Positions 151 through 23,635 of a DNA stretch of 23,635 nt are shown here, piece by piece. The stretch's first letter is position 1, and each line of letters opens with the position of its first letter. The stretch lies in the IMG/VR virus record IMGVR_UViG_3300042090_002758, positions 1 through 23,635 of that record; one strand, written 5' to 3'. Both the position numbers and the translations under genes were made by a program. The DNA comes from a virus. The notes beneath the pieces were generated by a model. That model did not search any database. It was given only the letters and a program-made list of their open reading frames with translations, and had not been told where the DNA came from.

Positions 151-837
151 TCACCCCAGCGCATCGCTCAGATTGTTCGCCGCGCGGCCAAGAAAGCCCT
201 GCGCGTCGGCCAGTTGCGCCAGCGACCCGGCCGCCGTTGCCGCCGATACCGGATCGCCCGCCGCCAACAGTTGCGTGCTCGCTTGTGCCATCCCCGCGCT
301 GGCCTGTGTCCCCGCCGCCGCCACCGCCGCCGCCGCCGCGTCATACGCCGCAGTGCCGGGCGTGGCCGCACCGGCAGCCGTCATTGCCGCCAAGGCGCCG
401 GAAACATCCACGCCGGATGCCGCCGTTTGCAGATCATCGGTCACGCCGTCCAGCAACGACGTCGCCGCTCGCGCGAACACCGCCGACTGATCGGCCACCA
501 CCGTGCAGGAAATCTGGTACGGCACCCAGGTGACATGCTCGTAGCTGGCAGTAAAGCGCTCGATCACCACCAGATACGCAAAGCAATCCCACGCCAGCGG
601 CAGCGGCGATCCCTGCGCGCGCAACAGATCCAGCAGCCGGGCCCGCAACGTCGCATCGCTGCCGGCGAACGTGCCAGACCACGACAGCGGCGCATCGTCG
701 CGCCCCATCGCGTCGATCACCCGCGCGCCGCCCGGCAGCCGATGCACCGCCAGGCGCTGGCCGCCGCCGAACCCGATGCTGGCCGGCAGCTCAAACCCCT
801 GGAACATCACCGGGCCAAGCAGAAGATATCCCGACAT
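151..837 (-). CDS. Phage gpN/baseplate-hub-like tail protein
   Basis: A 228-aa protein with ATG start at 837, preceded by a GGGGAGG ribosome site inside the end of the upstream gene. Residues 1-120 form a compact beta-rich domain (GFGGGQRLAVHRLPGG, WSGTFAGSDATLRARLLD, then a YEHVTWVPYQISCTVV strand). This pattern resembles the N-terminal domain of Mu gpN-type (DNA circularisation) and related baseplate-hub proteins. The C-terminal 100 residues are a low-complexity Ala/Gly-rich helix. Position supports the call: in Mu-like operons the order is sheath, tube, chaperones, tape measure, gpN, and this gene occupies the gpN slot. It has no LysM motif that I can see. The family assignment is inference from pattern and order. 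Confidence 0.6.
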   Translation of the reverse strand: MSGYLLLGPVMFQGFELPASIGFGGGQRLAVHRLPGGARVIDAMGRDDAPLSWSGTFAGSDATLRARLLDLLRAQGSPLPLAWDCFAYLVVIERFTASYEHVTWVPYQISCTVVADQSAVFARAATSLLDGVTDDLQTAASGVDVSGALAAMTAAGAATPGTAAYDAAAAAVAAAGTQASAGMAQASTQLLAAGDPVSAATAAGSLAQLADAQGFLGRAANNLSDALG

Positions 838-840
838 CGC

Positions 841-1656
841 TCAGCCTCCCCATCCCGCCGGACCCTGCAGCGTGCCCGGCCACGCCGGGGTCAGCCGCGG
901 GTCAAATCCCGTGCCCCCGGCCTGCGGCCGTCCCGCCTCTCGCGCCAGATGGTCGGCCAGCCAGCGGTCCAGCCGCGTGCCGTCCACCACCATCTCCGCG
1001 ACGTCCGCCCCGCGCGGGCCGATCGCGCTCCTTGCGCCCGGCGGCAAAGACGCAGCCGGCGTCTTCACCGGAGCCGCCGCCCGCAGGTCCGTTCGTAGCG
1101 GCGCGCACGCAGCATCCGCACGCCCCGGCAGCCCCAGACCAGGTGCCACACCAATTTTCGACAACAGATCCGTCGGTGTCGCCGCCACGAGCGTTGCCGA
1201 CAGCGCCGCGCCTGCGGCCGTATGCAGCACCGACGCGCGCGGACGTAACGTCCTCGCCATCGCCGGCGCCTTCGGAGCCAATTTTTCCACCATCGCCGGC
1301 GCGCCCGCCGCTCGCGGCAGCGCCCGTGCTGCCACCGGCTGCACCATCCGCAGCGGCAGGGCGGCTGTCGTCGCCAACGCAACCCGCACCGGCAACAACG
1401 GTCTTATCGCCATTGCTGCAGGCACGATCGGCGACAAGGCGATGCTCGCTGACAACGGCCGCGCCCGCGCCAACGCGGTCGCCGCGCCCGGCACCAGTTT
1501 CGACCATCGCAGCGACGGCCCGGAAATCACCGCCTGCATCGCTACCCGCGCGCGCGGCGGCGGCGGCACGGCGGGGCCACGCCATTGCCCGAGCAATAAC
1601 TCCGCCGCCCGCACCGCGCGGCGCAAAGTCGGATCGCAAGCAATGCTGCCGCTCAC
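841..1656 (-). CDS. Phage tail ORF in the tape-measure position, unusually short
   Basis: A 271-aa protein whose GTG start overlaps the stop of the chaperone fusion (GTGA, positions 1653-1656), implying coupled translation. Composition is extreme: mostly Ala, Pro, Arg and Leu through residues 30-215, without the long coiled coils and hydrophobic segments usual in tape-measure proteins. The last 50 residues (VVDGTRLDRWLADHLARE, then FDPRLTPAWPGTLQGP) look like a conserved folded tail. In contractile phages the gene after the frameshifted chaperones is normally the tape measure, usually 600 aa or more. This is either a much reduced tape measure, a remnant, or another minor tail protein. The reading frame is supported by tight junctions on both sides. 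Confidence 0.5.
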   Translation of the reverse strand: MSGSIACDPTLRRAVRAAELLLGQWRGPAVPPPPRARVAMQAVISGPSLRWSKLVPGAATALARARPLSASIALSPIVPAAMAIRPLLPVRVALATTAALPLRMVQPVAARALPRAAGAPAMVEKLAPKAPAMARTLRPRASVLHTAAGAALSATLVAATPTDLLSKIGVAPGLGLPGRADAACAPLRTDLRAAAPVKTPAASLPPGARSAIGPRGADVAEMVVDGTRLDRWLADHLAREAGRPQAGGTGFDPRLTPAWPGTLQGPAGWGG

Positions 1657-2176
1657 AGACGATCCTTCCAGCGCATGGCGGCGAAATCGAACTCGCCGCC
1701 GTCAAGTCGTCCCAGCACCACAACGAACGCCAGCCGCTCCTCGGTCGAGAGGCTGAACGCGATGTCGAACGGCACCCCGTTCCTGACCAGATAGAGGCTG
1801 TCGATCAGGTCGGGGTGCCGGCTGAGTTTCCCGCTGTGGCCGCCGCCTCGGCTGGCGTCGGCTGCTCGGCGGCCAATGCGTCGGACACCGCCGCCAGCCC
1901 CTCGTCGCCAAGCCGCGCGACCAGGGCTTCCACTTGCGTCTCCGTCGCCGGCTGCGGCACCGGAATGTCGTCGATGGCGGTGACGCTGGCTGCAAGAAGT
2001 GCCAGCCCCATCCACGGCGTGTTCGGTGCCAGCGCCGGTCCCGCCGCCTTCAGCAGCCGCAGCTTGTCCAGCGCCGTCAAATATCGAAGCGCCAGCCGTC
2101 GTCCGTGCGAGTCGGTGATGGTCGGGCCTGTTTGTGCGGCGGCCAGCAGGCGTGCCGAGGGTGTGTCCATCACCAT
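1653..2176 (-). CDS. Tail assembly chaperone fusion (lambda GT-like) made by -1 frameshift
   Basis: Ribosomes that slip back one base at GGGAAAC (1826-1832, read on the minus strand) continue past the G-like stop into a second frame that ends at 1653. The fused product would be 174 aa: 117 residues of the G-like part plus 57 residues beginning LSRHPDLIDSLYLV and ending MRWKDRL. The second frame has no ribosome site or start of its own at the junction but clearly has protein character (NGVPFDIAFSLSTEERLAFV). In lambda and most long-tailed phages the G and GT products chaperone the tape measure and recruit tube subunits, and the frameshift sets their ratio. The position directly after the tube gene agrees. 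Confidence 0.85.
1770..1832 (-). promoter_or_regulatory. Programmed -1 ribosomal frameshift site with stimulatory hairpin
   Basis: The minus strand reads G GGA AAC in the zero frame, a canonical X XXY YYZ slippery heptamer (1826-1832). After a 5-nt spacer comes a perfect 10-bp stem, CGGCACCCCG (1811-1820) with CGGGGTGCCG (1770-1779). It is continued by a 7-bp inner stem with one G-U pair, CCTGATC (1803-1809) with GGTCAGG (1782-1788), and a 14-nt loop. The zero-frame TGA (1805-1807) sits inside the inner stem. Heptamer, spacing and stem all match known -1 frameshift signals. Confidence 0.88.
1805..2176 (-). CDS. Tail assembly chaperone (lambda G-like)
   Basis: A 123-aa protein, zero-frame product of the chaperone locus. 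The ATG at 2176 overlaps the tube gene's TGA (TGATG), so translation is coupled to the highly expressed tube protein; a second ATG two codons later is possible. Residues 1-60 (RRLALRYLTALDKLRLLKAAG) are helical and fit the phage tail-chaperone pattern. The end is Ala/Glu-rich, and the last residues AGNSAGTPT are encoded across the slippery site and hairpin. It should be made in excess over the frameshifted form. The assignment rests on position, size and the frameshift signal more than on strong sequence motifs. Confidence 0.8.
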   Translation of the reverse strand: MVMDTPSARLLAAAQTGPTITDSHGRRLALRYLTALDKLRLLKAAGPALAPNTPWMGLALLAASVTAIDDIPVPQPATETQVEALVARLGDEGLAAVSDALAAEQPTPAEAAATAGNSAGTPT

Positions 2177-2604
2177 CACATCCGCGTCCGCGTGGTGGCA
2201 AAGAAGTCCATGCGTTGCTTGACGCTGGTATCGCCGCGCCACACGCCGGCGTGCGACAACCTGAACACCACACCGTCGAACTGATAGGTGCTGGTGGAGC
2301 CGTCGGACTCGTTGATGTACTGGTAGAGCGTGCCGGTGGCGGTGGCGTTGCCGGCGTAGTAGGCGGCTTCCACCTGGGCGATAAAGTCCTCGGCCGCGGA
2401 GTTGCCGCGCTCCATTTCGAAGTTGCCTTCCCAACCCTTGGGCAGCTCGGCGCCCAGTTGGGTGCCGTCGATGCGATGCACGCGCACCGAGGCAGTGATC
2501 TGCCGGCTTTCGAAGCCGGTGACGTGTTCGAGGTCGATGCGGCCATACGGCCCCATCACGACAACCTGGCTGTCGTGACCGACGGAGAATGTGTTGCCAG
2601 ACAT
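2176..2604 (-). CDS. Phage tail tube protein
   Basis: A 142-aa protein of the size and pattern expected for the inner tube of contractile tails (Mu gpM-like family). The start MSGNTFSVGHDSQVVVMGPYGRIDLEHVTGFE is followed by a HRIDGTQLGAELPKGWEGNFEMERG region and a YQFDGVVFRLSHAGVWRGD strand pair ending in VKQRMDFFATTRTRM. Tube proteins stack as hexameric rings around the tape measure, inside the sheath. The gene sits directly after the sheath gene, separated only by a REP-like element, and overlaps the chaperone start by one base. A short purine stretch (AAGGA) precedes the ATG, and a TATAAG box lies about 20 nt upstream. Confidence 0.88.
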   Translation of the reverse strand: MSGNTFSVGHDSQVVVMGPYGRIDLEHVTGFESRQITASVRVHRIDGTQLGAELPKGWEGNFEMERGNSAAEDFIAQVEAAYYAGNATATGTLYQYINESDGSTSTYQFDGVVFRLSHAGVWRGDTSVKQRMDFFATTRTRM

Positions 2605-2703: not shown

Positions 2704-4269
2704 CTACGCCGCCAAGGCGCCCGGCGCATTCGGCAACACCTGCGTTGCCACCTGCACCGTCTGCCCGCCCTGGATGTTGACGATGAATTTCTCGTTGATC
2801 GCCTGGTACTGCACCTGCGCGTCGCTCTGCACGTAGCCGAGCGACGTGCGGCGCAACGGGTTGTTCGAGGTGTCGCACACCACACTGAACGGCAGGCTGC
2901 CGTCGGTGCTGCCCAGCATTCCCTGTCCCAGCATGTTCTGCAGGAAGCTTAGCTGCGTGGCGCGGATTTGCCGGAACAGGTCAGCGTTGATGACCTCGCC
3001 GACATACTGCCCCATGCCGCCGGCAAGCGTGGCGGCGATGTAGTTGGTCATGCGCGTGTAGTTGTCGCCGTTGATGGCCACGTTGGAGGACGAGTTGTGC
3101 CCGCCGCGCACGCCCCAGAACGCGCCCCCCGGCTGTGGATTGGCGATCACGTCGATGCCGGCTTGCAGCAGCACCGCCAGATCGGCGCTGGCATAGCTGG
3201 TGCTTTGCCCAGCACCCGGCGCGCCGCTTTTCTGGCTGCCCACCACGGAGTACAGCGGCTTGTTCAGGCTGCTCTGCTCGGGACTGAGATTGGCCAGCCT
3301 GCCGGCGGCAAAGCCCTGCGGCGAAACCACGCGAAGCACCGCATTCACCGGGTCGTTCCACCAGATCCAGTCGCCGAACATCAGCTTGCAGGCGTAGCTG
3401 TCCAGCCCTGCACTTTGCTTGGTGACGACCGCGTTGGCGATGGTGTCGCCGGCCGGGCCGGTCAGCACCATGTAGATGCCCTCCGACAATCCGAACGCGG
3501 CCTGGGTGGTATATTGCGTGGTGTCGTCAGCGTCGGCCAGCAGTGCGAGGCTGCACCCTTGGCCGCGCAACGCATACATGCCCTTGCGCGGCACGGTATC
3601 AACGCCAACCAACGCCGCGGCGTTCACGCCCGCCGCACCGTCGCTGCCCGGCGTGCCGGTGCTGAACGCAACGCTGAACGCCGCAGGCGCCGCGCTGGCA
3701 GATGCGGCATTTGCCACCACCAGACCGCTTGGCCCGCGCTGCGGTCCCTGCCCGGTGTTCACCGCCGCGGCCAACGCTTGCCAGAACGCCGCGCCGGTGC
3801 CGGCGATGTTGTCGTAAACTTCCGGCACCAGGCCGGGTAGTGCCACCGTCAGTCGCCAGGTGTTCGCCTTCGATCCGGTGCCGAGCGTTACGACGATCTG
3901 GTTGCCGGTGCTCCCGGTGTACAGCCCGCTGAAGGTAAGACCCGACACCGTCACTTGCGCAGCGGTGTCGGTGCCGTCGGTGACGCGCACGCAGCGGAAG
4001 TTTTGTGCTCCCTGCTGCACCGCGGTAGCCACCTGCGTGCCCATGTCATATTTGCGCGCCACGATGGCGCCGAAACTCTGCGCATAGTCGGCCATGGTGG
4101 ACACAATCACCGGCTGGCCCACTGGCCCCCAGCTCGCGCTGCCAACCACGCCGAGCACGTCGGTCGGCACACCGTTCAGCGCCAGCTGCTGCGGCGGCAC
4201 GATTTGCACGTACAGATCAGGCACCACGAGTGCGGTGGTATTGATGCTGCCCTGTTGGACGATCGGCAT
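2704..4269 (-). CDS. Phage tail sheath protein
   Basis: A 521-aa protein typical in length and architecture of Mu gpL-like sheath subunits, which contract during infection. The N-terminus (TTALVVPDLYVQIVPPQQ, then VLGVVGSASWGPVGQPV) is the usual sheath opening. A variable, Ala/Gly/Thr-rich insertion domain covers roughly residues 100-230. The C-terminal half carries the conserved core: GDWIWWNDPVNAVLRVVSPQ, GAFWGVRGGHNSSSN, and RMTNYIAATLAGGMGQYVGE near residues 400-420. The ending INEKFIVNIQGGQTVQVAT is the exchanged beta-strand arm. GGAAAGG precedes the ATG. The call means the particle is a myovirus or R-type tailocin, not a siphovirus or a Rhodobacter-type gene transfer agent. Confidence 0.95.
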   Translation of the reverse strand: MPIVQQGSINTTALVVPDLYVQIVPPQQLALNGVPTDVLGVVGSASWGPVGQPVIVSTMADYAQSFGAIVARKYDMGTQVATAVQQGAQNFRCVRVTDGTDTAAQVTVSGLTFSGLYTGSTGNQIVVTLGTGSKANTWRLTVALPGLVPEVYDNIAGTGAAFWQALAAAVNTGQGPQRGPSGLVVANAASASAAPAAFSVAFSTGTPGSDGAAGVNAAALVGVDTVPRKGMYALRGQGCSLALLADADDTTQYTTQAAFGLSEGIYMVLTGPAGDTIANAVVTKQSAGLDSYACKLMFGDWIWWNDPVNAVLRVVSPQGFAAGRLANLSPEQSSLNKPLYSVVGSQKSGAPGAGQSTSYASADLAVLLQAGIDVIANPQPGGAFWGVRGGHNSSSNVAINGDNYTRMTNYIAATLAGGMGQYVGEVINADLFRQIRATQLSFLQNMLGQGMLGSTDGSLPFSVVCDTSNNPLRRTSLGYVQSDAQVQYQAINEKFIVNIQGGQTVQVATQVLPNAPGALAA

Positions 4270-6302: not shown

Positions 6303-6617
6303 TCAGATCGGTGGCAATTCCTCGTCCGGAGGCATTTTGGTCTGGCCCCCAAGCACCGCTCGGATGAAACCACTCTCTATCAGGCCAATCGCCTCAGCGA
6401 TGCGCCTTACCTCGTCTCGCACGTCCAACGGCGCGGCCCGTCCATTGACCAGCAGGTGTGCGCACATCTCCTCAAGCGCCAAACCATATTCGCCTTCGTC
6501 GATGAACTCTGTTACATAGTCGAAGGGTTTGCCGATCTGCCCCTTGGGATAAACGAACGCGTAGAATTTCCGTAGTGCGGTCGCAATCTGTAGTTCGATG
6601 TCGCGACGCTCGCTCAT
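6303..6617 (-). CDS. MafI-like immunity protein
   Basis: A 104-aa cytoplasmic protein predicted to neutralise the EndoU toxin encoded immediately upstream. The region FDYVTEFIDEGEYGLALEEMCAHLLVNG and the following helical stretch VRDEVRRIAEAIGLIE match the all-helical MafI immunity pattern (an 'ID.GE...ALE' core). It starts at an ATG 8 nt after the toxin stop, with TGAGGT as ribosome site. Known family behaviour: in Neisseria, MafI proteins bind cognate MafB toxins, several of which end in EndoU domains. Pairing of this gene with this toxin is inferred from adjacency and family logic. Confidence 0.72.
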   Translation of the reverse strand: MSERRDIELQIATALRKFYAFVYPKGQIGKPFDYVTEFIDEGEYGLALEEMCAHLLVNGRAAPLDVRDEVRRIAEAIGLIESGFIRAVLGGQTKMPPDEELPPI

Positions 6618-6625: not shown

Positions 6626-7351
6626 TCAGGGGTTCGTTGGGAGACCAACGGGATAGGCAGACACCACCGTGCGGCCATCTCGACCAATGATCACCCGGAT
6701 CCGTACGCCAGTTTGTGGTCCATATATTAGTTGCCGATCTCGATCAACCATCACTCTCGCGCTACTCGGGTCTTCTGCGACGTTTTCGATGGCTTGCCTA
6801 ATATCCTCGTCGGACCACCCTCTCGGGAATTCTGTCTTGCCCGACATCCCACTCCCGGGCCGATGGTTAGCCAGAATATGCTGCAACCGATCTGATGGTA
6901 GGTCATAGCGCTTTAGTGAGGCTTGCGCGAGACTGTTCGTCTTCAACCTCGCATCTGTTTCCGCCTCCGCACCCGCTTGGACAGCACGTCCGGCCGGCGC
7001 CGCTTCCACCTCCGTCGCAGCCCTGCCCGCGGACGCGGCCGCTCCCACCCCGCCGAGCGCGCCTCCAACCATGTCCGCGCTGAGTTGCGCCATGTTCGCC
7101 GGGTTGGTGCTGGCGTAGTGCGCCAGTTCGTCCGCCACCTCCCGGCGGTCGGCGTTTGTCATCGTATCGCTGGCGAGGCCCGACAGGATGGCGTTCACCT
7201 GATTGCCACCCCGCGTGTCGCCCTTGTCGTAGAATGCCTCGCGGATGGCGACGCGCAGCGCGCTAACGTTGTCGCGCTCCCGCACCGCCAGGATGCGGTT
7301 CATCAGTGGCACCAGCGGCGCGTAGTACGGCCGCCCCGGCGGCAACGTCAC
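6626..7351 (-). CDS. EndoU-family RNase toxin encoded within the phage operon
   Basis: A 241-aa protein whose C-terminal 95 residues match the bacterial EndoU nuclease domain. It has RLQHILANHRPGSG with two histidines (158 and 163), GKTEFPRGWSDEDI (Lys172), and GVRIRVIIGRDGRTVVSAYP with Ser231 and Tyr233. These are the expected His/His/Lys plus Ser-Tyr residues for RNA cleavage leaving cyclic phosphate. Residues 1-95 are a helical region I do not recognise, followed by an Ala/Gly-rich linker (95-130). No signal peptide is visible. The start is unclear: GTG at 7351 is used here, ATG at 7303 is possible. A TAA lies upstream inside the 7379-7470 hairpin, which limits extension. EndoU domains are usual tips of polymorphic toxins; here it lies between head and tail genes. 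Confidence 0.8.
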   Translation of the reverse strand: MTLPPGRPYYAPLVPLMNRILAVRERDNVSALRVAIREAFYDKGDTRGGNQVNAILSGLASDTMTNADRREVADELAHYASTNPANMAQLSADMVGGALGGVGAAASAGRAATEVEAAPAGRAVQAGAEAETDARLKTNSLAQASLKRYDLPSDRLQHILANHRPGSGMSGKTEFPRGWSDEDIRQAIENVAEDPSSARVMVDRDRQLIYGPQTGVRIRVIIGRDGRTVVSAYPVGLPTNP

Positions 7352-8523: not shown

Positions 8524-8543
8524 TGTTCTGTCCTGCGTCTGAC

Positions 8544-8660
8544 ACCCTCACCCCAACCCTCTCCCGCAAGCGGGAGAGGGAGCAGAACGCCCTTCCCTCT
8601 CCCACTTGTGGGGTCGAGCTGCGAAGCAGATCGACGGGGCGCGCAGCGCCGGGTGAGGGT
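8544..8660 (-). repeat. REP-like palindromic element, copy C (composite, two hairpins)
   Basis: It begins ACCCTCACCC and ends GGGTGAGGGT. Inside are a CCCTCTCCCGC/GCGGGAGAGGG hairpin, a spacer, a second half-preserved CCCAC/GTGGG hairpin, an inserted GTCGAGCTGC/GCAGATCGAC stem with one mismatch, and GGCGC/GCGCC-type bases. Its terminal T is the last base of the capsid gene's stop codon (minus-strand TGA, 8660-8662), so it directly abuts that gene's 3' end. Confidence 0.85.
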
Positions 8661-10384: not shown

Positions 10385-11901
10385 GCCGTCACCTTTTCCG
10401 TATCCGCCGCACCCTCACCCTGGCCCTCTCCCGTAAGCGGGAGAGGGAGAAGTGCGCCTTCCTTTTCCTCTCCCACTTGTGGGAGAGGGTGGCGCGCAGC
10501 GCCGGGTGAGGGGGCCGCACCCTCGCGCGCAATCCGTGCCAGTTCCCCTTGCACGTCCTCGATGTCATAGACGTCGGCAATCGACTTCACCGCCGTCTCG
10601 CGTGAGAGCACGCCGGTTGCCGTCAGCGTCTGCAATGTCGCCGCGTCCTGCCGGCGGTCCTGGGCATCGGGCGGATACCAGGGCGGCCAGCGCAGCGTAA
10701 TGCGCGCCGCGGCCGCCATCGGCGCCACCGGCACGCCCCGCACCCGCAACTCGAACCGCTCGGCGGCGCGCACGATCATCTGCGCCAGCTCGATCATCGC
10801 GCCGCCGTAACTCACGCGCAGATTGTCCGCCAGCCACACCAGCCCTTGATTCATCAGCTCCAGCGCGCGCCCGCTCTGCGGTGCGGCCAGCCTCTCGGCG
10901 CTGGCGCGGTTGCCATGCACGCCTTCCAGCGCCAGTTCGCGCAGGAACCGCACATACTCGATCACCGCCGCCGACGCGGTGCCGCCGATTTCCAGCAGCT
11001 TGGCATCGCCTTTGTCACTGACCACCAGCGCGTTGCCGGCGCCGCGCACGATCTCGCCGTCGGTGGCGGCGGGTTCGCGGATCAGCAGCGTCGGGTCGGA
11101 CGAGTATTTCAGTCCCCGCCCGGCCTGCGACAACTGGTAGTCGATTTCGATGGCGGTCTCTACGGCGGGGCGAAAGGTGCAGGCGCCGTCGATATCGTCG
11201 CCGCCCGGCAGGTTGCGCACCCAGACCAGCGGCACGAACCCCAGCCCGTGACGCACGCTGCGCGCGGTATCGATGAGCGTCGGCGGCCCGGCGGTGACCG
11301 GACTCGGCACGTACCAGGTTTCCCACGCGTCGTCCCAGACACGCTCAAACCAGTAGTCCGCGCCTGCGTCATCAATGTCGTAGCCCTGCGCCAGCAAACT
11401 GCGGCCCGGTACTTTGTAGAGCTGCCTCACCCGCGCCAGCCGGTCCGGCGCGGCGGAGTTCCATGCCGGGGTCAGGAACTGGCTCGGCAACACCTGCAGG
11501 AACAGCCGCCCGTCCAGCACCCGCAGCAGCACGGCCACGCTGCCCACCGAGCCGCGCAGCGCGGCCTCCAGCATCACCTGATTGAGCCGGCTGTCGCGGG
11601 CAAGGTCGGCCAGTGCGGCACGGGTCCGCGGTTCGTCGCATTCCAGCGTCGGGAAGTGTCCTTCGCCGAACACCAGTGAAAGACTGTCGTCCACCACGAT
11701 GCGCGCCAGCGGGTAGCGCACGCTGGGGCGCCGCTGCCGCAACGGGATGTAGTCGCCGCCGGCGCCGCGCTCCTCGTGAAACTCGTAGGGCAGCACATCG
11801 TACAGCCGCCCCTCCAGCACGCGCGTCAGAATGTCCAGTCGCCGCGTCCGCTCGGGATAGTCCCGGTCGCGCGGGATCAGATTGCAGATGGTGTCGAACA
11901 T
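10381..11901 (-). CDS. Phage portal protein with a repeat-derived C-terminus
   Basis: A 506-aa portal subunit, forming the ring through which DNA enters. I place the start at ATG 11901 (MFDTICNLIPRDRDYPERTR), with GGGAG upstream. An upstream extension in frame would translate REP-like element E. Recognisable portal features are GGDYIPLRQRRPSVRYPLARIVVDDSLSLVFGEG, GLGFVPLVWVRNLPGGDDIDG, YQLSQAGRGLKYSSDPTLLI, and the C-terminal helices around RELALEGVHGNRASAERL. Roughly the last 40 residues, from PSPGAARHPLPQVG to LPLTGEGQGEG, are REP-like element D read as protein; the frame then ends exactly at the ATGA overlap with the scaffold gene. The natural end before insertion was probably near ELARIAREG. 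Confidence 0.88.
   Translation of the reverse strand: MFDTICNLIPRDRDYPERTRRLDILTRVLEGRLYDVLPYEFHEERGAGGDYIPLRQRRPSVRYPLARIVVDDSLSLVFGEGHFPTLECDEPRTRAALADLARDSRLNQVMLEAALRGSVGSVAVLLRVLDGRLFLQVLPSQFLTPAWNSAAPDRLARVRQLYKVPGRSLLAQGYDIDDAGADYWFERVWDDAWETWYVPSPVTAGPPTLIDTARSVRHGLGFVPLVWVRNLPGGDDIDGACTFRPAVETAIEIDYQLSQAGRGLKYSSDPTLLIREPAATDGEIVRGAGNALVVSDKGDAKLLEIGGTASAAVIEYVRFLRELALEGVHGNRASAERLAAPQSGRALELMNQGLVWLADNLRVSYGGAMIELAQMIVRAAERFELRVRGVPVAPMAAAARITLRWPPWYPPDAQDRRQDAATLQTLTATGVLSRETAVKSIADVYDIEDVQGELARIAREGAAPSPGAARHPLPQVGEEKEGALLPLPLTGEGQGEGAADTEKVTA
10411..10513 (-). repeat. REP-like palindromic element, copy D (composite) inside the portal reading frame
   Basis: ACCCTCACCC at one end and GGGTGAGGG at the other enclose two hairpins (CCCTCTCCCG/CGGGAGAGGG type and CCTCTCCCAC/GTGGGAGAGG) joined by a short spacer. 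It has the same two-hairpin layout as copy C. All of it is open in the portal frame, which keeps going to the scaffold start. Confidence 0.9.
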
Positions 11902-13465: not shown

Positions 13466-13969
13466 GGCGATCCGGAAATGGCGACGGCGGCGGCGCAGCT
13501 CCTTGCCGCGCACGCCGCCGATCATGGCGATAGACATACCGGATTTTGGGGCATCCGGGCAACCGCTTATATTCTTATCATGGGTGCGTTTTCCTATTGC
13601 CCTTGCGCTGCACAATCTTTGCCGCTTTTGGTCAGTACACGCGGCCGACCATCCCCAGTATCGCCCGCAAGCAACTGAAAGCAGAGCAATCGAGAGCCAT
13701 AGTTGCGAGATTGCACCCCCGCTTCTGCGGCCGCCGCCGGGGGCTGTTGCAACCTGCCGTGCGGCTCGACCCGGTTGGGGGTTGACCTGCGCTTCGCAAG
13801 TTGCTTCGCTCCGGCCGCGTTTGACCCGGCCCGCAGCATATCCATGCGTATTTCGTTGGCATAGCGTTGTGATTGCTTAAGCCTAGGCGAGTGTTCTGCT
13901 CGCAGCCGTGCCTGGAGGGCTGACCGGATGGGTCAGCGGTCCGCACGCGCAGGAAAAGGGAGAGTGCGT
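13466..13969. other. Divergent intergenic region between terminase and rlpA-like genes
   Basis: About 500 nt with no supported gene. It should hold the promoters of the phage operon (minus) and of the rlpA-like gene (plus), but I see no clear -35/-10 pair. A small perfect hairpin lies at 13919-13937 (GCTGACC/GGTCAGC, 5-nt loop) just before the rlpA-like ribosome site and could modulate its expression. I found no tRNA end or direct repeat that would mark a phage attachment site. Confidence 0.4.
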
Positions 13970-14548
13970 ATGTTCCCACCCGTCCGCCGGGTGCTGCCCG
14001 GTATGCTCGCCTCGTTGTTGATCGCCGCCCCGGTGTTGGCCACCCATGCGCGGGCCGCCTCGCCCGACGCTGTCACGCCCACCACCGCCACCGCGCGCAC
14101 CGCCGGCATCGAGCAACGGCGCGGGGTTGCCGCCCGTCCGTCGCGTGGTCTGGCCAAGCTCGCCCACTATGTCCGCCGCCGGCCGGTCACGCATCCGGCG
14201 CACATCGCCACCCAGACGGTCTCGGTTCACACGCTGGCCTTCTTCGACGACGAAGGCGCCTGGCACCAGAGCGGCACCGCCTCGTGGTACGGCGGCTCGC
14301 GTTGGCAGGGCCAGCGCACGGCCTCGGGCGATCGCTATGAACAGGACGCGCTGACCGCCGCGCATGCCACCTTGCCGCTCGGCGCCAAGGTGCGGGTGAC
14401 GTTGGACGGCAGCGGCCGGGAGGTGGTTGTCACCATCAACGACCGGCCCGGCTCGCGCACCCGCATCATCGACCTCAGCCGCGGCGCCGCCCGCGCGCTG
14501 GGCATCCTCGACAGCGGCGTGGCGCGGGTAACGCTGTCGTTGCTCTGA
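13970..14548 (+). CDS. rlpA: RlpA-like septal ring lytic transglycosylase family protein
   Basis: A 192-aa exported protein. The ATG at 13970 follows AGGAAAAGGGAGAG, better placed than an earlier in-frame ATG at 13928. Residues 1-30 (VLPGMLASLLIAAPVLATHARA) form a Sec signal peptide with an AxA cleavage site. No lipobox cysteine is present, so unlike E. coli RlpA this is not a lipoprotein. A basic, low-complexity linker precedes the double-psi beta-barrel domain: SGTASWYGGSRWQGQRTASGDRYEQDALTAAHATLPLGAKVRV, then VVVTINDRPGSRTRIIDLSRGAARALGI. The usual Glu of family catalytic sites is not obvious to me. There is no SPOR domain. It probably acts on septal or cell-wall peptidoglycan. Confidence 0.85.
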   Translation: MFPPVRRVLPGMLASLLIAAPVLATHARAASPDAVTPTTATARTAGIEQRRGVAARPSRGLAKLAHYVRRRPVTHPAHIATQTVSVHTLAFFDDEGAWHQSGTASWYGGSRWQGQRTASGDRYEQDALTAAHATLPLGAKVRVTLDGSGREVVVTINDRPGSRTRIIDLSRGAARALGILDSGVARVTLSLL

Positions 14549-14676
14549 ATCCTGTCCGGCCCGGTGCCATGTCCGATATGATTGCTCAGTCAATCTGACA
14601 TCAAGGCGAAATCATCTCTTGACCGACCTGGGAGGCAGCGGTTAATTCTTCGTTACCTAACGGGGCGGAGAGGGCG

Positions 14677-15357
14677 ATGAAAATTTCCAGGATGGCGTCG
14701 GGCGCAGCCCTGGCGACGGCTCTGGCATTCGCGGCACCGGCGGCGTGGGCGCAGAGCGTGGCCGTCAGCGGCGGCGGGACATGGGCGCCTACGTCTGCAA
14801 CGCCCACTGACCCCAGCGGGCCTCTCTTTCAGCAATCGGCGTCCGGCATTGCCGATCCTAGCGGCGTGTTCAGCTTCTCGTTCCTGGTGGACACCAGTAG
14901 CTTCGCGTACGCCGACGACAGCAACGGTAACCAACTCACGCCCCCGACGGGCACCGAGACCGTCTCGGACCTGGTCTGGACGGAAAACGGCGTCACCCAG
15001 ACGGTGGGGGCGGGTTCGGTGGGCTTCTACGATACTAACTACAACTACGGCCCCAACGGTCTCGGCGGATTTGACCTGTATTTCACGGCGTCGGTCGACG
15101 AGTCGGATGTCGCCTTCGACCTGTACTTTGGCTGGTTCCCCGCTGTCGATCTGGCGCAGGGCGGCACGTTTCCCAGTTCGTACAACAATGGCTATTACCA
15201 ACTGAGCTGGACCGACGGGGCTGACGACCCGATCGACTACGATGACAATACCGGCAACAGCTACGCCGCCGTGCCGGAGCCGATGTCGCTGGCGATGCTG
15301 GCCTCGGGCCTGCTCGGTCTGGCCATCATGCGCCGCCGCCGCGGCTCGCAGGGCTGA
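14677..15357 (+). CDS. PEP-CTERM sorting domain protein
   Basis: A 226-aa secreted protein with signal peptide (ALATALAFAAPAAWA, cut after AWA) and a C-terminal sorting signal VPEPMSLAMLASGLLGLAIM followed by RRRRG. Known family logic: the PEP motif, hydrophobic helix and basic tail are cut by an exosortase in the inner membrane, and the protein is released or anchored outside, often in exopolysaccharide or biofilm matrix. The mature part is acidic, Gly/Ser/Tyr-rich and beta-like (FDLYFTASVDESDVAFDLYF), with no enzyme motif. GGAGAGGG precedes the ATG. A strong terminator follows, so it is a single-gene transcript. No exosortase gene is in the window. Confidence 0.88.
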   Translation: MKISRMASGAALATALAFAAPAAWAQSVAVSGGGTWAPTSATPTDPSGPLFQQSASGIADPSGVFSFSFLVDTSSFAYADDSNGNQLTPPTGTETVSDLVWTENGVTQTVGAGSVGFYDTNYNYGPNGLGGFDLYFTASVDESDVAFDLYFGWFPAVDLAQGGTFPSSYNNGYYQLSWTDGADDPIDYDDNTGNSYAAVPEPMSLAMLASGLLGLAIMRRRRGSQG

Positions 15358-15394
15358 CACCACAGCCCCATCCGCTCGCCCCATCGCAGCCGTC

Positions 15395-15423
15395 ACGGGC
15401 GCGGGTCATTCCGCGCCCGTTTT
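15395..15423 (+). terminator. Rho-independent terminator after the PEP-CTERM gene
   Basis: ACGGGCGCGG (15395-15404) pairs perfectly with CCGCGCCCGT (15411-15420) across a 6-nt loop, followed by TTT. It lies 38 nt past the PEP-CTERM stop and 50 nt before the convergent histidine kinase gene's end. Confidence 0.85.
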
Positions 15424-15473
15424 GCTGTGCCGTCGCACGCGCTCTTGCCTTGCGCCCCTTTCCCCGCAGAGCG

Positions 15474-17399
15474 TCAGCCCTCTGCCGCGGCCGGCAGCCA
15501 CAGCGCAACCGTGGTGCCCTGGTCGGGGGCGCTGGCGATCTGCAGGGCGCCGTGGAATTGCTCGGCGAAGCGGTGCGCCATCGCCAGGCCCAGCCCGGTG
15601 CCCTGCCCCACGCGCTTGGTGGTGAAGAACGGCTCGGTCGCGCGCGCCAGCACCTCGGGGGCCATGCCCGCGCCGCTGTCCTGCGCCACCAGCCGCACGT
15701 AGTGCCCCGGCGCCAGTCCCAGCGCCCGCCCGGCGTCGTCCGGCGCCTCTGCAACCACCACCGCCTCGGCCGCCAGCGTCAGCTCGCCGCCGCCGGGCAT
15801 GGCGTCGCGGGCGTTGGTGGCCAGATTGAGCACCACCGTCTCCAACTGGCCGCGATGCGCCAGCACCGGCGGCAGGCCGGCCGCGACCGCCACATGCAGT
15901 TCAATGGAGGGCGGCAGGGTCGTGGCCAACAACTCGCGCAGCGCCTCCAACAGCGAGGCAACCTCAACCGGCTCGCCGGTCAGCGCGGTCGGGCGGGAGA
16001 AGGCAAGCAGCCGGCCGGTGATGGCCGCGCCACGCCGCGCCGCCTCGGTGATCAGGCGCGCCACCCGCAGCACCGTTTCCGGCTTGTCGGGGCACGCACG
16101 CAGCAGGTCGCCCGAGGTTTCCGCGGTTTGCAACACGTTGTTGAAATCATGGGCGATGCCGCTGGCAAGCTGGCCGAGCGCCTGCATCCGCTCGGCATGC
16201 ATCACCGCCACCTGCGCCGCCTCGCGCGCCGCCACCTCCTCGGCCACCCGCTGCTCCAGCGTAGCGGTCAGCGCCTGCAAGCGGCCCAACGCCTCGCGCC
16301 GTGTGGTGGCCGCAACATGCAGGGCGCGCGCCACCGCATCGGCTTCGCGCAGGCCGGTGGCCGGCGGCTCGGGCGCGTCGGCGCCGTCGGGGGCGGCGGC
16401 GATGATCTGCAACCGCTCGATCGGCCGCAGGATGTTTCGCGCCACCCATCGCGCCAGCAACAGCCCGGTCAGCAGCATCACCCCGCCCGCCGCCAGCGCC
16501 TCCTCGGCCCGCCGCTGCACCGGCCCGGTCAACTGCCGCTCGGCGACGGCGAGCCCGACATGCCAGCCAGCGCCCGGCACCGGCGCGAAGGCGGCCAGCG
16601 CCGGCGTGCCCTCGCGCGTGGCGACGCGCGCAATCCCTTGCCCGCCGGACGGTGGAAGATCAGGCAAATCCAACGTCAGCGTGCCCAACGCGCCTTCGAC
16701 CCGCGGCCAGCGCGCCAGGATGGCACCGGCGCTGTCGGTCAGCCACAAGTTCCAGCCCGGTTGCGGCCGCTGCTGCTCGGTGATGGTCTGGAATTTGCCC
16801 AGGCCGAGCCGCAATACCAACCGCTGACCCGGCCCCCAGCCGGCGGCGCGCGCCGGCACGCTCAGCTCCACCCCGGCCGGCTGATCTTGCGTTGCCGCAA
16901 CAAGATCGGAAACGCTGGGTGGATCGTCGCGCGCCACCGTGCCGACCGTGGGCGAAGGCGGCGTTGGCAGCTCAAGCAGCCGGCTGCCGTCCGCGCCCAA
17001 CAGCGTCAGCGTCGATCCCGACGGCAACTCTGCGAGCAGCCCGGCGGCCTCATTGAGGAAGCCTTCGTCATCAAGGCGGCGCAGCGCCAGGGTCGTGGCC
17101 AAACGCGTCAGCGCGCCTTGCACGGACTGCAACTCACGTCCCACGCTGTCGGCGAAACTGCGCACCGAACTTAGCTGCTGCTCCGCAATAAGCTCGCGGT
17201 CGCGGCGATATTCGAAAACCTCGGCGGCCAGCGAAAATGCGAGCAGCGGCAGCACACAAGCTGCGACAAGCAGATAGAGTCGCCCACGCAGTCCAAACGG
17301 TTGCCACCGTCGGGAGGGAGCCGCATCCTTGGCGGGCTTGCCCACCGGACACACTCCACGAAATGAGTATCCCAGCGCACATGAGTCTCCGCCCGCCAT
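15474..17399 (-). CDS. Membrane sensor histidine kinase
   Basis: A 641-aa sensor from ATG 17399; a GTG at 17345 is an alternative start. Membrane helix 1 is about residues 41-58 (LYLLVAACVLPLLAFSLA) and helix 2 about 303-318. Between them lies a periplasmic region of about 240 residues of the Cache/dCache kind by size. A HAMP-like segment and a coiled coil (EALGRLQALTATLEQRVAEE) lead to the H-box GIAHDFNNVLQ with His417. Then come the N-box LNLATNARDAM, the G1 box DSGAGM and the G2 region GQGTGLGLAM. 'HDFNN' kinases usually pass phosphate to stand-alone or fused receivers. No fused receiver is present, and two single-domain receivers lie about 2 kb away. The ligand is unknown. It diverges from the glycosyltransferase gene. 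Confidence 0.92.
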   Translation of the reverse strand: MAGGDSCALGYSFRGVCPVGKPAKDAAPSRRWQPFGLRGRLYLLVAACVLPLLAFSLAAEVFEYRRDRELIAEQQLSSVRSFADSVGRELQSVQGALTRLATTLALRRLDDEGFLNEAAGLLAELPSGSTLTLLGADGSRLLELPTPPSPTVGTVARDDPPSVSDLVAATQDQPAGVELSVPARAAGWGPGQRLVLRLGLGKFQTITEQQRPQPGWNLWLTDSAGAILARWPRVEGALGTLTLDLPDLPPSGGQGIARVATREGTPALAAFAPVPGAGWHVGLAVAERQLTGPVQRRAEEALAAGGVMLLTGLLLARWVARNILRPIERLQIIAAAPDGADAPEPPATGLREADAVARALHVAATTRREALGRLQALTATLEQRVAEEVAAREAAQVAVMHAERMQALGQLASGIAHDFNNVLQTAETSGDLLRACPDKPETVLRVARLITEAARRGAAITGRLLAFSRPTALTGEPVEVASLLEALRELLATTLPPSIELHVAVAAGLPPVLAHRGQLETVVLNLATNARDAMPGGGELTLAAEAVVVAEAPDDAGRALGLAPGHYVRLVAQDSGAGMAPEVLARATEPFFTTKRVGQGTGLGLAMAHRFAEQFHGALQIASAPDQGTTVALWLPAAAEG

Positions 17400-17433
17400 C
17401 CCGCTCGGTCAACGTCGGTTTCGTAATGGCCGC

Positions 17434-18804
17434 ATGGTGATGGGGGCATCGCTGCGCGGGCATCTGGAATGGGCGAGCCGTTTCGGGGTGGCGGGTTGGG
17501 CGCGTGACCAGGACGGGCAGGCGCCGCTGCGCCTGGAGGTGCTGGCGGGGCGCCGCCGGCTGGGCGTGGCGGTGGCCGACCGCTACCGCCCGGATCTGGC
17601 CGCCGCCGGCGAGGGCGACGGCCGCTGCGCCTTCGAGCTGTGGTTTAACCCGCCGCTGCCGCCCTCTGGTGCGCCGGCGCTCTCGGTGCAAAGCGCGGCC
17701 GGCACGCCGCTGCCCGGCTCGCCGTTCGCGCTGGCCCCGGACCCGCCGATGGCCGCGCCGCCGCCCGCCCTGGACGGACCGGCCGACGTCGCCCTGGTGG
17801 TTGACGAGGCGGCGCCGGACGCGGCGCGCGATGCCGGTTCGGCGGCGGTGCTGTCGCACATGGCCGCACTCGGGGCGCTGGGGCTGGAGGTGCAATTCGC
17901 GCCCCGCGCCGCGGCGGCCGAGGCGGCGCGGCGGCTGGGCCGGCGCGTGTGCGTGGCCTATCTGCACCGGCTGCGCACCATGCTCGACTGCCACGGCGCC
18001 ATCCGCGCCGCCTGCCCCGGCGCGCGCGTGCTGTTCGCCATCGCCGACCTCGCCAGCCTGCGCGTCGCGCGCCAGGTGCGGGTGCTGGGCGGGGAGCAAC
18101 CGCACGGGCTGCTGGCAGCCGAGGCGGCGGCGCTGGCGGCGGCCGATGCGGTGCTGACGCACAGCGACGTGGAAGCGGCGCTGCTCGCCCGCATGGCCGA
18201 CCAGGGCGCGGGGCGGCTGCCGCCGACAGTGCATGTGGTGCCCTGGGCGGTGCCGCCGCGTCCGCAGGCGGCGGACTGGGCGGCGCGCGCGGGGGTTGGG
18301 TTCGTCGGCAATTTCGGCCATGCGCCGAACCTGGATGCGGCCATGGGGCTGCTGGAAGCGGTGATGCCGCTCGTCTGGCGGCAGGCCCCGGTGCCGTGCG
18401 TGCTGGCCGGCTACGGCCCGCCGGCATGGCTGTGCGCCAGGGCCGGCGGACTGGTGGAGGTGATCGGCTCGCTCGACGACATTGCCGCGCTGTGGCGGCG
18501 GGTGCGGGTCAGTGCGGCGCCGCTGCGCTTCGGCGCGGGGGTGAAGGGCAAAGTGCTGGACAGCCTGGCCGCCGGCGTGCCCGCGGTATGCTCACCGGTG
18601 GCCGCCGAGGGCATCGCGCTGCCGCCGCCGCTGCTGGCGGCGGACCCGGCGGCGATGGCCGCGACGCTGCTGCGGCTGCACGAAGACCAGGCGGCGAACG
18701 CGGCCCTTGCCGCGGCGGGGCTGGCCATGATCGGGGATCGCCATGGCGCGGCGACGGTCACGCGCGCGCTGGGCGCGGCGGTTGCGGCGGCGTTGGCGCG
18801 CTAG
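17434..18804 (+). CDS. Glycosyltransferase (GT4-like, group 1 type)
   Basis: A 456-aa protein from ATG 17434 (an ATG two codons on is equally possible). The N-terminal 110 residues (ASLRGHLEWASRFGVAGWARDQDG) resemble a small accessory beta domain. A Rossmann-like part follows (AYLHRLRTMLDCHGAIRAACPGARVLFAIADLASLR). The C-terminal half is a GT-B donor-binding domain: GVGFVGNFGHAPNLDAAMGLLEAVMPLVW, VIGSLDDIAALWRRVRVSAAPLRFGAGVKGKVLDSLAAGVPAVCSP. The 'FGAGVKGK..D.LAAGVP' motif is typical of GT4 enzymes that build surface polysaccharide or glycosylate proteins. Donor and acceptor cannot be told. The gene's stop shares CTAG with the convergent receiver gene. Confidence 0.82.
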   Translation: MVMGASLRGHLEWASRFGVAGWARDQDGQAPLRLEVLAGRRRLGVAVADRYRPDLAAAGEGDGRCAFELWFNPPLPPSGAPALSVQSAAGTPLPGSPFALAPDPPMAAPPPALDGPADVALVVDEAAPDAARDAGSAAVLSHMAALGALGLEVQFAPRAAAAEAARRLGRRVCVAYLHRLRTMLDCHGAIRAACPGARVLFAIADLASLRVARQVRVLGGEQPHGLLAAEAAALAAADAVLTHSDVEAALLARMADQGAGRLPPTVHVVPWAVPPRPQAADWAARAGVGFVGNFGHAPNLDAAMGLLEAVMPLVWRQAPVPCVLAGYGPPAWLCARAGGLVEVIGSLDDIAALWRRVRVSAAPLRFGAGVKGKVLDSLAAGVPAVCSPVAAEGIALPPPLLAADPAAMAATLLRLHEDQAANAALAAAGLAMIGDRHGAATVTRALGAAVAAALAR

Positions 18805-19184
18805 CCAACGCCGCCGCCGGACACGCTCACCCTGGCCGAGGCAGCAGCCGCGCCGGCCTGGGTCAACGCGGCTTCCAACTGGCCGGCGCTGAAGGGCTTG
18901 ATCAGATGACCGATGCCCGGCTGCAAAATGTGGTCCATCTGCTGCGGATGACCGGTGCAGAGCACCGCGCCAACACCAGCCGCCAACGCCCGCTCGGCAA
19001 GGTCCAGGCCGCTGCCGCCGGGCAGCATCAGGTCGGCCAGCACCACGTCCCACTCAGCCTCGTCGAGCAAAAGCAATGCGCTGGCGTGATCGACAGCGAC
19101 ACCCGTCACGTGACCCGACGCCACCAGCAGGTCACAAAGCGTTTCACGCACCGCTGCGTCGTCTTCCACGACGAGAACGCGCAC
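18801..19184 (-). CDS. Stand-alone response regulator receiver protein
   Basis: A 127-aa single receiver domain. I favour the GTG at 19184 (VRVLVVEDDAAVRETLCDLL), since GAGGAAAG sits just upstream and homologous receivers begin there; an ATG at 19244 would add 20 residues. The acidic pair Asp8/Asp9, phosphoacceptor Asp51 (VLADLMLPGGSG), Thr77 (LCTGHP) and Lys96 (LIKPF) are all present, so it should be phosphorylated. It has no output domain; the end is a short Ala/Ser/Gly tail. Likely a phosphate relay or sink, or a protein-interaction switch, possibly for the nearby kinase. Its stop overlaps the glycosyltransferase stop head-on. Confidence 0.88.
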   Translation of the reverse strand: MRVLVVEDDAAVRETLCDLLVASGHVTGVAVDHASALLLLDEAEWDVVLADLMLPGGSGLDLAERALAAGVGAVLCTGHPQQMDHILQPGIGHLIKPFSAGQLEAALTQAGAAAASARVSVSGGGVG

Positions 19185-19266
19185 TTCTTTCCTCGTACCA
19201 CAACCTAGAATAGAGTAGGCGTTACGTGCAGATCCGGCGCGCAAATATGCGTGAGCGGTAAAACCC

Positions 19267-19770
19267 CTACGCCGACACCAGCGACGCCTGCCGGGACTTC
19301 GCCATCCTCATCCCGCCGGCACCGTCGAGGGCGGCACGGATGGCCCTGAGCAGGTCAACGCGGCGAAACGGCTTGATCAGCAACGGCAGGTGCGCCGCCA
19401 GCCCGTTGCCCAGGAACGTGCCCGGCGCGGCGTAGCCGGTGGCCAGCACGATCGGCAGCGCCGGCCGCAGCCGCCGCGCCGCCGCGGCAAGGTCCAGCCC
19501 GTTGAGCGCGCCCGGCAGCATGATGTCGGTCAGCAGCAGGTCGCAGTCGCGGCCGGCGCGAAGGAACTCCACTGCCGTCTCGGCCCGCTCGTATCCGGTC
19601 ACGTGCGCGCCGGAGGCCGATAGCAGCGCATCGGTGACCTCTCGCACTTCGGGATCATCCTCGACCAGCAACAGCTTCACATCGGCCAGCTCCGGGCCGG
19701 GCCGCGACAGCCCCTCGCAGCCGGGCGGATGGACAAGCCTGACAGGGGGGGCATTACACACGATGCGCAT
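19267..19770 (-). CDS. Stand-alone response regulator receiver protein
   Basis: A 167-aa protein (ATG 19770), or 137 aa from a GTG at 19680 that begins directly at the domain (VKLLLVEDDPEVREVTDALL). Receiver residues are complete: Asp38/Asp39, phosphoacceptor Asp82 (LLLTDIMLPGALNGLDL), Thr111 (LATGYAAPG) and Lys133 (LIKPF), counted from the ATG. No output domain follows; the tail MRMAKSRQASLVSA is basic. It is related in layout to the receiver gene 82 nt downstream on the same strand, and both may be one transcript. The two look like paralogous receivers that could compete for the same kinase. Confidence 0.88.
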   Translation of the reverse strand: MRIVCNAPPVRLVHPPGCEGLSRPGPELADVKLLLVEDDPEVREVTDALLSASGAHVTGYERAETAVEFLRAGRDCDLLLTDIMLPGALNGLDLAAAARRLRPALPIVLATGYAAPGTFLGNGLAAHLPLLIKPFRRVDLLRAIRAALDGAGGMRMAKSRQASLVSA

Positions 19771-19809
19771 TCCTCGCGGCCGATGGAGCGATCACTTGGA
19801 GGGAAGAAT

Positions 19810-20304
19810 ATGACCGATTCGTCAACCCGCCGGTTTGTTACTTTGCCGCCGCGTTTCAACAATGCGTGTAAAGCGGTCCGGCGCCAACACAGGTGCGATA
19901 CCGCACCTGTCACGGCATGGCAGTCGGCACGGGGCGGGGTTGCGGGATTGCTGGGGCTGCTGACGCTGCTGGGCTGCGCCGACGAGAACACGGGCGAGCG
20001 GCGGTACGTGGGCGCGCTGGCAGGCTGCGAGGCGTTCGCCGGGGCCTCGCACAACGCCACGCTGACGCGCAACGCCGACGTGGTGGTGTTCACCCCCGAC
20101 GACGGCACGCTGATGCTCACCGGCACGCTGGCGGCGGATGGCACGCTGATGCTGCGCCGCAACACCCAGCCGGCGGGCAAGCCGCCGTATGTGCTGACGG
20201 TGTCGGGCCGGGTGGCGGCCGGGCAGGCCACGCTGACCTACGTGACGCCGCGCTGCCAGGCGCATGGCGTGCTGCGTCTGGTGCCCAAGACGCTGACGCC
20301 GTGA
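19810..20304 (+). CDS. Small predicted lipoprotein
   Basis: A 164-aa protein, ATG 19810 after GGAGGGAAGAAT. A hydrophobic segment GVAGLLGLLTLLGC ends in a lipobox-like LLGC, but about 40 polar residues precede it, longer than a normal lipoprotein signal. The true start may therefore be internal, although no better start codon is evident. The mature part (about 105 residues) has two Asp/Gly-rich repeats, DDGTLMLTGTLAADGTLMLR, and a final beta-strand region with Cys (TPRCQAHGVLRLV). Two cysteines (GCEAF and PRCQ) could form a disulfide. The family is not recognised. It diverges from the receiver gene and ends head-on against the GIY-YIG gene. Confidence 0.65.
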   Translation: MTDSSTRRFVTLPPRFNNACKAVRRQHRCDTAPVTAWQSARGGVAGLLGLLTLLGCADENTGERRYVGALAGCEAFAGASHNATLTRNADVVVFTPDDGTLMLTGTLAADGTLMLRRNTQPAGKPPYVLTVSGRVAAGQATLTYVTPRCQAHGVLRLVPKTLTP

Positions 20305-20305
20305 C

Positions 20306-20593
20306 TCAGGCCAGCCGCGCGAACAGATCGTCCCACCGTGGATTGTCGGCCATGATCAGCCGGACCTTCCAGGCGCGCGGCCAGTGCTTGAGGGTCTTCT
20401 CACGCTGGATGGCGGCGCGGATGTCCTGGTGCGGCTCGGCGTGGACCAGCCGCTTGAGTCCGTAGCGCGCGGTGAAGCCGTCGCCCAGGCCCTCGCGATG
20501 CTCCCAGACGCGACGTGCAAGGTTGCTGGTGACGCCGACGTAGAGCGTGCCGTTTGGCCGGTTGGTCATGATGTACACCCAGCCCTCAGGCAT
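20306..20593 (-). CDS. GIY-YIG nuclease superfamily protein (small YhbQ/UPF0213-like class)
   Basis: A 95-aa single-domain protein. The GIY-YIG core appears as WVYIMTNRPNGTLYVGVTSNLARRVWEHREG, with the tyrosine pair (VYI...LYVGV) and the Arg of the RR-WEH segment. It continues with FTARYGLKRLVHAEPHQDIRAAIQREKTLKHWPRAWK, including the Glu of QREK that binds metal in active members. Small proteins of this class are common in bacterial genomes and often lie beside repeats; roles in DNA processing are proposed, but the physiological function is uncertain. Its 3' end is 2 nt from the lipoprotein gene's stop, and a large tandem array begins about 50 nt upstream of its start. Confidence 0.9.
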   Translation of the reverse strand: MPEGWVYIMTNRPNGTLYVGVTSNLARRVWEHREGLGDGFTARYGLKRLVHAEPHQDIRAAIQREKTLKHWPRAWKVRLIMADNPRWDDLFARLA

Positions 20594-20643
20594 CAGTCTG
20601 CTCCTGAGCTCAAGGCCGGCGCTCCTTGGTCACGGCCGTGCCC

Positions 20644-21204
20644 TTTCGTCATGCGCGTACTCCCTTTGTCATGCCCGGCCTTGTGCCGGGCATCCACGAC
20701 TGGCGGCCGCAAGGTGCGTGCGGCGCGAAGGCGTGGATGGCCGTGACAAGCACGGCCATGACGAATCCCCGGCGGCATGGCCGGCGCCCCTTCGTCATGC
20801 GGGTGCGCCCATTGTCATGCCCGGCCTTGTGCCGGGCATCCACGACTGGCGGCCGCAAGGTGCGTGCGGCGCGAAAGCGTGGATGGCCGTGACAAGCACG
20901 GCCATGACGAATCCCCGGCGGCATGGCCGGCGCCCCTTCGTCATGCGCGTGCGCCCATTGTCATGCCCGGCCTTGTGCCGGGCATCCACGACTGGCGGCC
21001 GCAAGGTCCGTGCGGCGCGAAGGCGTGGATGGCCGTGACAAGCACGGCCATGACGAATCCCCGGCGGCATGGCCGGCGCCCCTTCGTCATGCGCGTACTC
21101 CCTTTGTCATGCCCGGCCTTGTGCCGGGCATCCACGACTGGCGGCCGCAAGGTCCGTGCGGCGCGAAAGCGTGGATGGCCGTGACAAGCACGGCCATGAC
21201 AAAA
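20644..21204. repeat. Tandem array of 146-bp palindromic units, nearly four copies
   Basis: The anchor TGTCATGCCCGGCC recurs at exact 146-nt steps (GTC at 20668, 20814, 20960 and 21106). Each unit holds two hairpins, GCCCGGC/GCCGGGC and ATGGCCGTG/CACGGCCAT with an ACAAG loop, and in most copies a CGGCGGCATGGCCGGCGCC joint. Units 1 and 4 share the variant GTACTCCCTTTGTC; units 2 and 3 share GTGCGCCCATTGTC. Another site (GGTGCG or GGTCCG) separates units 1-2 from 3-4, and a third alternates G/A. Translated, the unit gives the 'WMPGTRPGMT' pattern widespread in alphaproteobacterial intergenic repeats, so the frames in it are not genes. Confidence 0.95.
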
Positions 21205-21229
21205 CCCCGGACGCAGGCGTCCGGGGTTT
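21202..21229 (-). terminator. Rho-independent terminator after the second PEP-CTERM gene
   Basis: AAACCCCGGACG (21202-21213) pairs perfectly with CGTCCGGGGTTT (21218-21229) across a 4-nt loop. A TTTT run follows in the minus direction. It sits 26 nt past the minus-strand PEP-CTERM stop and directly borders the tandem array. Confidence 0.88.
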
Positions 21230-21255
21230 CGGCGGTCGGCAAAGCGTCGGCGCGA

Positions 21256-23505: not shown

Positions 23506-23510
23506 CCGGG

Positions 23511-23558: not shown

Positions 23559-23635
23559 AGCGACTGTCTTGGTCGTCAAGCCCGATCGACCGAAGGCATG
23601 GTTTTGCGGACGCGACGGGTGCATCAAGGCTGGCG
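23542..23635. repeat. Right arm of the 94-nt inverted repeat
   Basis: The reverse complement of positions 14-107, 93 of 94 bases identical. It begins inside the hairpin of REP-like copy F and reaches the last base of the window, so its outer limit is unknown. No gene is supported in it. Confidence 0.9.

Follow-up and report, generated by a model that had tools for sequence, protein, structure and literature searches.

The tail gene cluster and its putative chaperone

The window, by which we mean the whole analysed stretch of 23,635 nucleotides from an IMG/VR virus record, carries on its minus strand a tail gene module in which two overlapping reading frames lie between the genes in tail tube and tape-measure position. 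The features relevant here are, in order of coordinates:

151..837, minus strand: GpU-like tail protein (phrog_21362, E 1.5e-44; phrog_16855, 'Gpu-like tail protein', E 0.002)
841..1656, minus strand: next gene, 271 aa, in tape-measure position (by position; no family match)
1653..1826, minus strand: -1 frame extension, 57 aa plus stop, putative analogue of T and E' (conserved in relatives)
1770..1779, minus strand: 3' arm of the stem, CGGGGTGCCG (conserved core 1771-1779)
1782..1809, minus strand: inner 7-bp helix (1809-1803 with 1788-1782), weakly conserved
1805..1807, minus strand: zero-frame stop TGA, inside the hairpin
1805..2176, minus strand: zero-frame ORF, 123 aa, putative short tail assembly chaperone and analogue of G and P2 E (phrog_20383, AlphaFold2 model)
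1811..1820, minus strand: 5' arm of the stem, CGGCACCCCG (conserved core 1811-1819)
1821..1825, minus strand: 5-nt spacer TCAGC (6 nt up to the conserved 9-bp core)
1826..1832, minus strand: X XXY YYZ-type slippery heptamer, G GGA AAC, in zero-frame phase and present at homologous sites
2176..2604, minus strand: upstream gene in tail tube position, after the sheath gene (phrog_12993, no known function)
2704..4269, minus strand: tail sheath protein (phrog_23, E 2e-46)

The order sheath, tube position, chaperone is anchored by the clear identity of the sheath, while tube and tape measure are assigned by position only. The start ATG of the zero-frame ORF overlaps the TGA of the upstream gene by one base, and the GTG of the 271-aa gene overlaps the TGA of the extension. 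Portal, major head protein and terminase are found in the same module as the sheath, and the whole belongs to a contractile-tailed prophage. Host-like genes adjoin the terminase (13616-23635), among them a histidine kinase (15474-17399), a response regulator (19267-19770) and a GIY-YIG protein (20306-20593); as no integrase or lysogeny gene was recognised on this side of the window, the prophage is possibly degraded or domesticated. The gene in tape-measure position varies considerably in length, from 246-296 aa in near relatives to genes of 110-137 aa plus 320-420 aa in others and 743 aa in the Komagataeibacter phage phiKX2. Should the 271-aa gene of the window indeed encode the tape measure, a very short contractile tail would be expected.

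Two further observations concern the surroundings of the tail genes. Between the head and tail genes, an ORF at 6626-7351 (minus strand) ends in a bacterial EndoU nuclease domain (PF14436, E 4e-9) and is followed by a small gene without family match (6303-6617, minus strand); the pair is possibly a toxin cargo with its immunity gene, carried within the structural module. Furthermore, copies of a REP-like repeat, CCTCACCCCAGCCCTCTCCCGCAAGCGGGAGAGGG, are located between phage genes and in flanking DNA (2640-2700, 8539-8580, 10410-10512, 89-133 and 23512-23560).

The zero-frame protein belongs to phrog_20383 (E 1.9e-23), a family of unknown function, and matches the tail assembly chaperone family phrog_508 marginally (E 0.005-0.02). 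Searches of Pfam and NCBIfam with this protein gave nothing above the cut-off, and no credible match came from a profile search of PDB sequences. Its AlphaFold2 model (pLDDT 92.9; row L021 was left out of the input alignment) finds its best PDB match in 2ob9, the HK97 tail assembly chaperone, with YqbN next. With a Z-score of 5.7 over 98 residues, an rmsd of 4.7 and a TM-score of about 0.45, the match to 2ob9 is moderate, and the model suggests that the short form adopts a tail chaperone fold like that of HK97.

Slippery heptamer, hairpin and predicted products

Towards its 3' end, the zero-frame ORF reads GCC ACA GCG GGA AAC TCA GCC GGC ACC CCG ACC TGA, so that the minus-strand GGGAAAC (1832..1826) is read as GCG GGA AAC in the frame of ORF 2176..1805. 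Five nucleotides past the heptamer begins a perfect 10-bp stem, in which CGGCACCCCG (1820..1811) pairs with CGGGGTGCCG (1779..1770). The 31-nt loop of this stem contains the inner helix, and the zero-frame stop (1807..1805) is part of that helix. After a slip of one base, the product would continue as ...ATAGN-LSRHPDLIDSLYLVRNGVPFDIAF..., with 57 residues up to the stop at 1655..1653, and the resulting fusion of 174 aa would join the N-terminus of the short form to a conserved -1 frame domain at its end. The initial annotation had described this arrangement without giving a strand, and its account holds for the phase of the heptamer, the 5-nt spacing, the position of the stop within the stem and the 57-residue extension to 1653. 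It had also proposed a 10-bp stem extended by seven more pairs; both are present in the minimum free energy fold of the window, but across relatives only nine of the ten outer pairs are conserved and the inner seven are not firmly so.

GGGAAAC occurs three times in the window, against 1.6 expected. It is thus not rare by itself, and its significance derives from its phase, its location in the frame overlap and its conservation. The hairpin folds at -38.1 kcal/mol (z -3.1), a value equalled in 1 of 200 dinucleotide shuffles, and a search of the window against Rfam returned no match.

We consider it very likely, with a probability of about 95%, that a -1 programmed ribosomal frameshift with a hairpin produces a short and a long tail chaperone from this locus. 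Most ribosomes would stay in the zero frame and terminate once 123 residues have been made. Some would slip one base back at G GGA AAC, exchanging GGA for GGG and AAC for AAA, with their forward movement hindered by the hairpin 5-6 nt downstream; having shifted, they would read 57 more codons and make the fusion of 174 residues. If the roles match those in lambda G/GT and P2 E/E+E', the tape measure would be coated by the short form, and the long form, the rarer of the two, would bring in tail tube subunits in a fixed ratio.

Conservation across relatives and rival explanations

Relatives were collected by scanning IMG/VR with the zero-frame protein and by profile scans of GTDB genomes and IMG/VR, which together gave 186 distinct homologous site regions. 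The named organisms among them belong mostly to the Acetobacteraceae and Rhodospirillales, and a few are Planctomycetes. The in-phase heptamer is kept at 182 of these sites, as GGGAAAC in 156 and as AAAAAAC in 26, and nearly all of them carry the 9-bp stem core at a fixed spacing with a 31-nt loop. In most relatives the spacer opens with a zero-frame stop (TGA, TAA or TAG): the stop directly follows the heptamer at 143 of the 182 sites, and the window represents a minority state, shared by 36 sites, in which it lies six codons further on. The four sites without the heptamer are those of L020, L088, L030 and L234; L030 has lost it along with part of the stem, and L234 has a one-base deletion within it. 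Such a deletion, and the origin of the window from a public virus record of 23.6 kb that is possibly a fragment, might suggest that the frame transition reflects an assembly error or a decayed pseudogene. The transition and the heptamer, however, recur at 182 distinct sites, including those of cultured bacteria and sequenced phages, and these conservation data rule this explanation out.

Alternatively, the two frames could be separate genes, with coupling or re-initiation allowing the extension to be translated from a start codon of its own. This is how they are annotated in phiKX2, where both are listed as 'hypothetical proteins' and the second starts at an ATG inside the hairpin. It is also the organisation seen in two very distant relatives, in which heptamer and stem are both gone and two genes with their own start codons overlap by GTGA or ATGA (L020 1916-2484; L088 2473-3015); the initial annotation had named this arrangement as evidence against its reading, and we encountered it in these two relatives only. 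By contrast, at 138 of the 182 sites the -1 frame offers no ATG, GTG or TTG ahead of the conserved HP codons, and just two sites have such a codon within 45 nt; in about three quarters of the sites, the extension is therefore reachable by frameshifting only. In the window, the nearest upstream start codon in this frame is 183 nt away, and the next one falls within the 3' arm of the stem. Moreover, conservation of the extension starts exactly at the heptamer, and third-position variability tracks the zero frame upstream of the site and the -1 frame downstream of it. We therefore regard independent translation of the extension as very improbable. Still less probable is that the fusion is made by transcriptional slippage on A-runs, without any slippage of the ribosome. 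The AAAAAAC of 26 relatives would be compatible with this, but most sites, including the window, have GGGAAAC with homopolymers of three at most, the phase is always X XXY YYZ, and the RNA hairpin is conserved at ribosomal spacing.

With the frameshift itself as the preferred reading, it can be asked what part the hairpin plays. With the heptamer's first G numbered 0, the stem pairs 13-61 to 21-53 are standard in 98% of cases across 97 non-redundant sites, compared with 35-49% for slid versions of the same arms. The tenth pair (12-62, or 1820-1770 in the window) is pairable in 53% and the inner seven in 51-87% each, neither being firmly conserved. It is conceivable that, as in P2, the shift needs the heptamer only, and that codon choice in the conserved HP and NGVP motifs happens to produce the stem; no stem has been reported for P2-type sites (PMC3091744), and relatives with AAAAAAG have none. 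Yet the arm codons are frozen far above their usage (GGG 98% versus 25%, GTG 99% versus 46%, CCC 92% versus 24%, CAC 95% versus 67% and AAC 95% versus 70%), whereas the CCN codon directly past the stem is free and follows usage, which demonstrates selection on the stem at the RNA level. Likewise, when the -1 frame was recoded synonymously with its protein sequence kept, none of 1000 recodings folded as low as the native sequence (-33.0 versus -17.1 +/- 3.2), and all ten outer pairs arose in 151 of 20,000.

Compensatory changes in distant members also speak against a by-product of codon choice. In L097, one C-G pair is changed to G-C and another to G-U with the helix kept, and L093 has U-A in place of C-G; among farther relatives, C-G has become G-C in L397, L399, L416 and L413, and G-C has become A-U in L382. 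We therefore consider it unlikely that the stem lacks a role of its own, and find it more plausible that it would stimulate the shift. Covariation, which the initial annotation had suggested as a check, thus turns up in these few pairs and is otherwise sparse, because the almost invariant stem sequence leaves little room for it; the case for the stem is consequently carried mainly by the frozen synonymous sites. Finally, when IMG/VR was searched by the RNA signal alone and spacing and loop length were left free, 81 matches were returned, of which 62 are members of this family, all with identical spacing and loop. The original proposal of a frameshift signal in a tail chaperone gene is thus supported by the 182 heptamers at 186 sites, the frozen stem codons and the structural match to the HK97 chaperone.

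Known tail chaperone frameshifts and the wider superfamily

Frameshifted tail chaperones are classical and widespread in phages. The role of RNA structure downstream of their shift sites is poorly documented, such structures being rare according to one study (PMC3091744) and often found according to another (PMC3483164). The signal in the window is best described as belonging to a new family that would rely on the established mechanism of G/GT (P2 E/E+E'). The special points of this family are its family-wide stem, a heptamer that ends in AAC and a zero-frame stop that usually lies right behind the heptamer.

As in lambda gpG/gpGT and the G/GT family of long-tailed phages (Xu, Hendrix and Duda, 2004, as cited in PMC5009743), the -1 shift would occur close to the end of the chaperone gene, which lies between the genes assigned to tube and tape-measure position, and would give a short and a long form. 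Unlike lambda G/GT, the window family appears to belong to a different protein family (with the weak match to phrog_508), has an AAC-ending heptamer and a strong conserved stem, and is associated with a contractile tail. With P2 E/E+E' it shares the contractile-tailed phage type and, presumably, the gene position; the products are of 123 aa and 174 aa here, versus 91 aa (E) and 142 aa (E+E') in P2, and P2-like sites differ in having TTTTTTG and no downstream hairpin that was found (PMC3091744). The gp18/gp19 site of Burkholderia phage KL1 (L528) resembles the family in its GGGAAAC with a zero-frame TGA directly after it, and its authors proposed a downstream stem-loop by mfold (PMC3483164). 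KL1 is, however, a siphophage with an unrelated extension, and the stem of the window family is absent from it. The haloarchaeal viruses HCTV-1 and HCTV-2 likewise have G_GGA_AAC and A_AAA_AAC as g-t shift sites (PMC5009743), but they are archaeal siphoviruses.

Relatives of the window family are the Komagataeibacter phages phiKX1 and phiKX2 (37% protein identity), described in a study that induced myovirus-like particles with contractile tails and does not mention a frameshift (PMC8566455). phiKX2 has AAAAAAC TGA and the same stem as the window family, GGCACCCCG/CGGGGTGCC. The expectation that standard annotation would miss the fusion proved right in phiKX2, whose two frames are listed as separate hypothetical genes, and our analysis puts a name to a family so far annotated in this way.

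Wider scans raised the number of distinct sites to 319, of which 312 have a heptamer at the same place and 238 of these have the stop directly behind it. The stem accompanies GGGAAAC in 199 of 199 cases, AAAAAAC in 57 of 78, AAAAAAG in 0 of 24 and AAAAAAA in 4 of 11. Since AAAAAAG and some AAAAAAC homologs do without it, the stem is not essential to the wider superfamily. On the tree, GGGAAAC and AAAAAAC were exchanged several times with the stem kept and without a non-slippery intermediate, which strongly indicates selection for slipperiness itself.

On E. coli ribosomes, heptamers of the A_AAA_AAN series that end in AAC are weaker than those that end in AAG (PMC5009743), AAAAAAG being the strongest A-run heptamer in E. 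coli; on mammalian ribosomes, G_GGA_AAC and A_AAA_AAC are among the shiftiest sites. Given the weakness of AAC-ending heptamers in E. coli, frameshift efficiency in the window family may be low; for HK97-like chaperones, efficiencies of 6-7% were found by experiment (PMC3711429). One might speculate that heptamer strength and hairpin are traded off against each other, in that the AAC A-site codon of GGGAAAC would slip less well on bacterial ribosomes, and that a stop right behind the heptamer would prevent the hairpin from being opened by unshifted ribosomes. In counts, the association of heptamer and stem is strong, yet it follows a few old branches of the tree and is not significant by independent contrasts; with so few independent changes, we keep this trade-off as a hypothesis only, and a rather doubtful one. 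The superfamily provides a natural series: the stem is present at all 199 GGGAAAC sites, at part of the AAAAAAC sites and at none with AAAAAAG, and two distant relatives have a split gene and lack both heptamer and stem.

Among the remaining IMG/VR matches to the RNA signal are four different proteins (L279, L285, L311 and L320) that likewise have an in-phase GGGAAAC or AAAAAAC followed by a GCACCCCG/CGGGGTGC-like stem. A search of phages with the extension of L311 gave one weak match only. Most of the four extensions are of the LREHPE...LALGV type, and the likeness of their stems to that of the window family may reflect either old homology or convergence.
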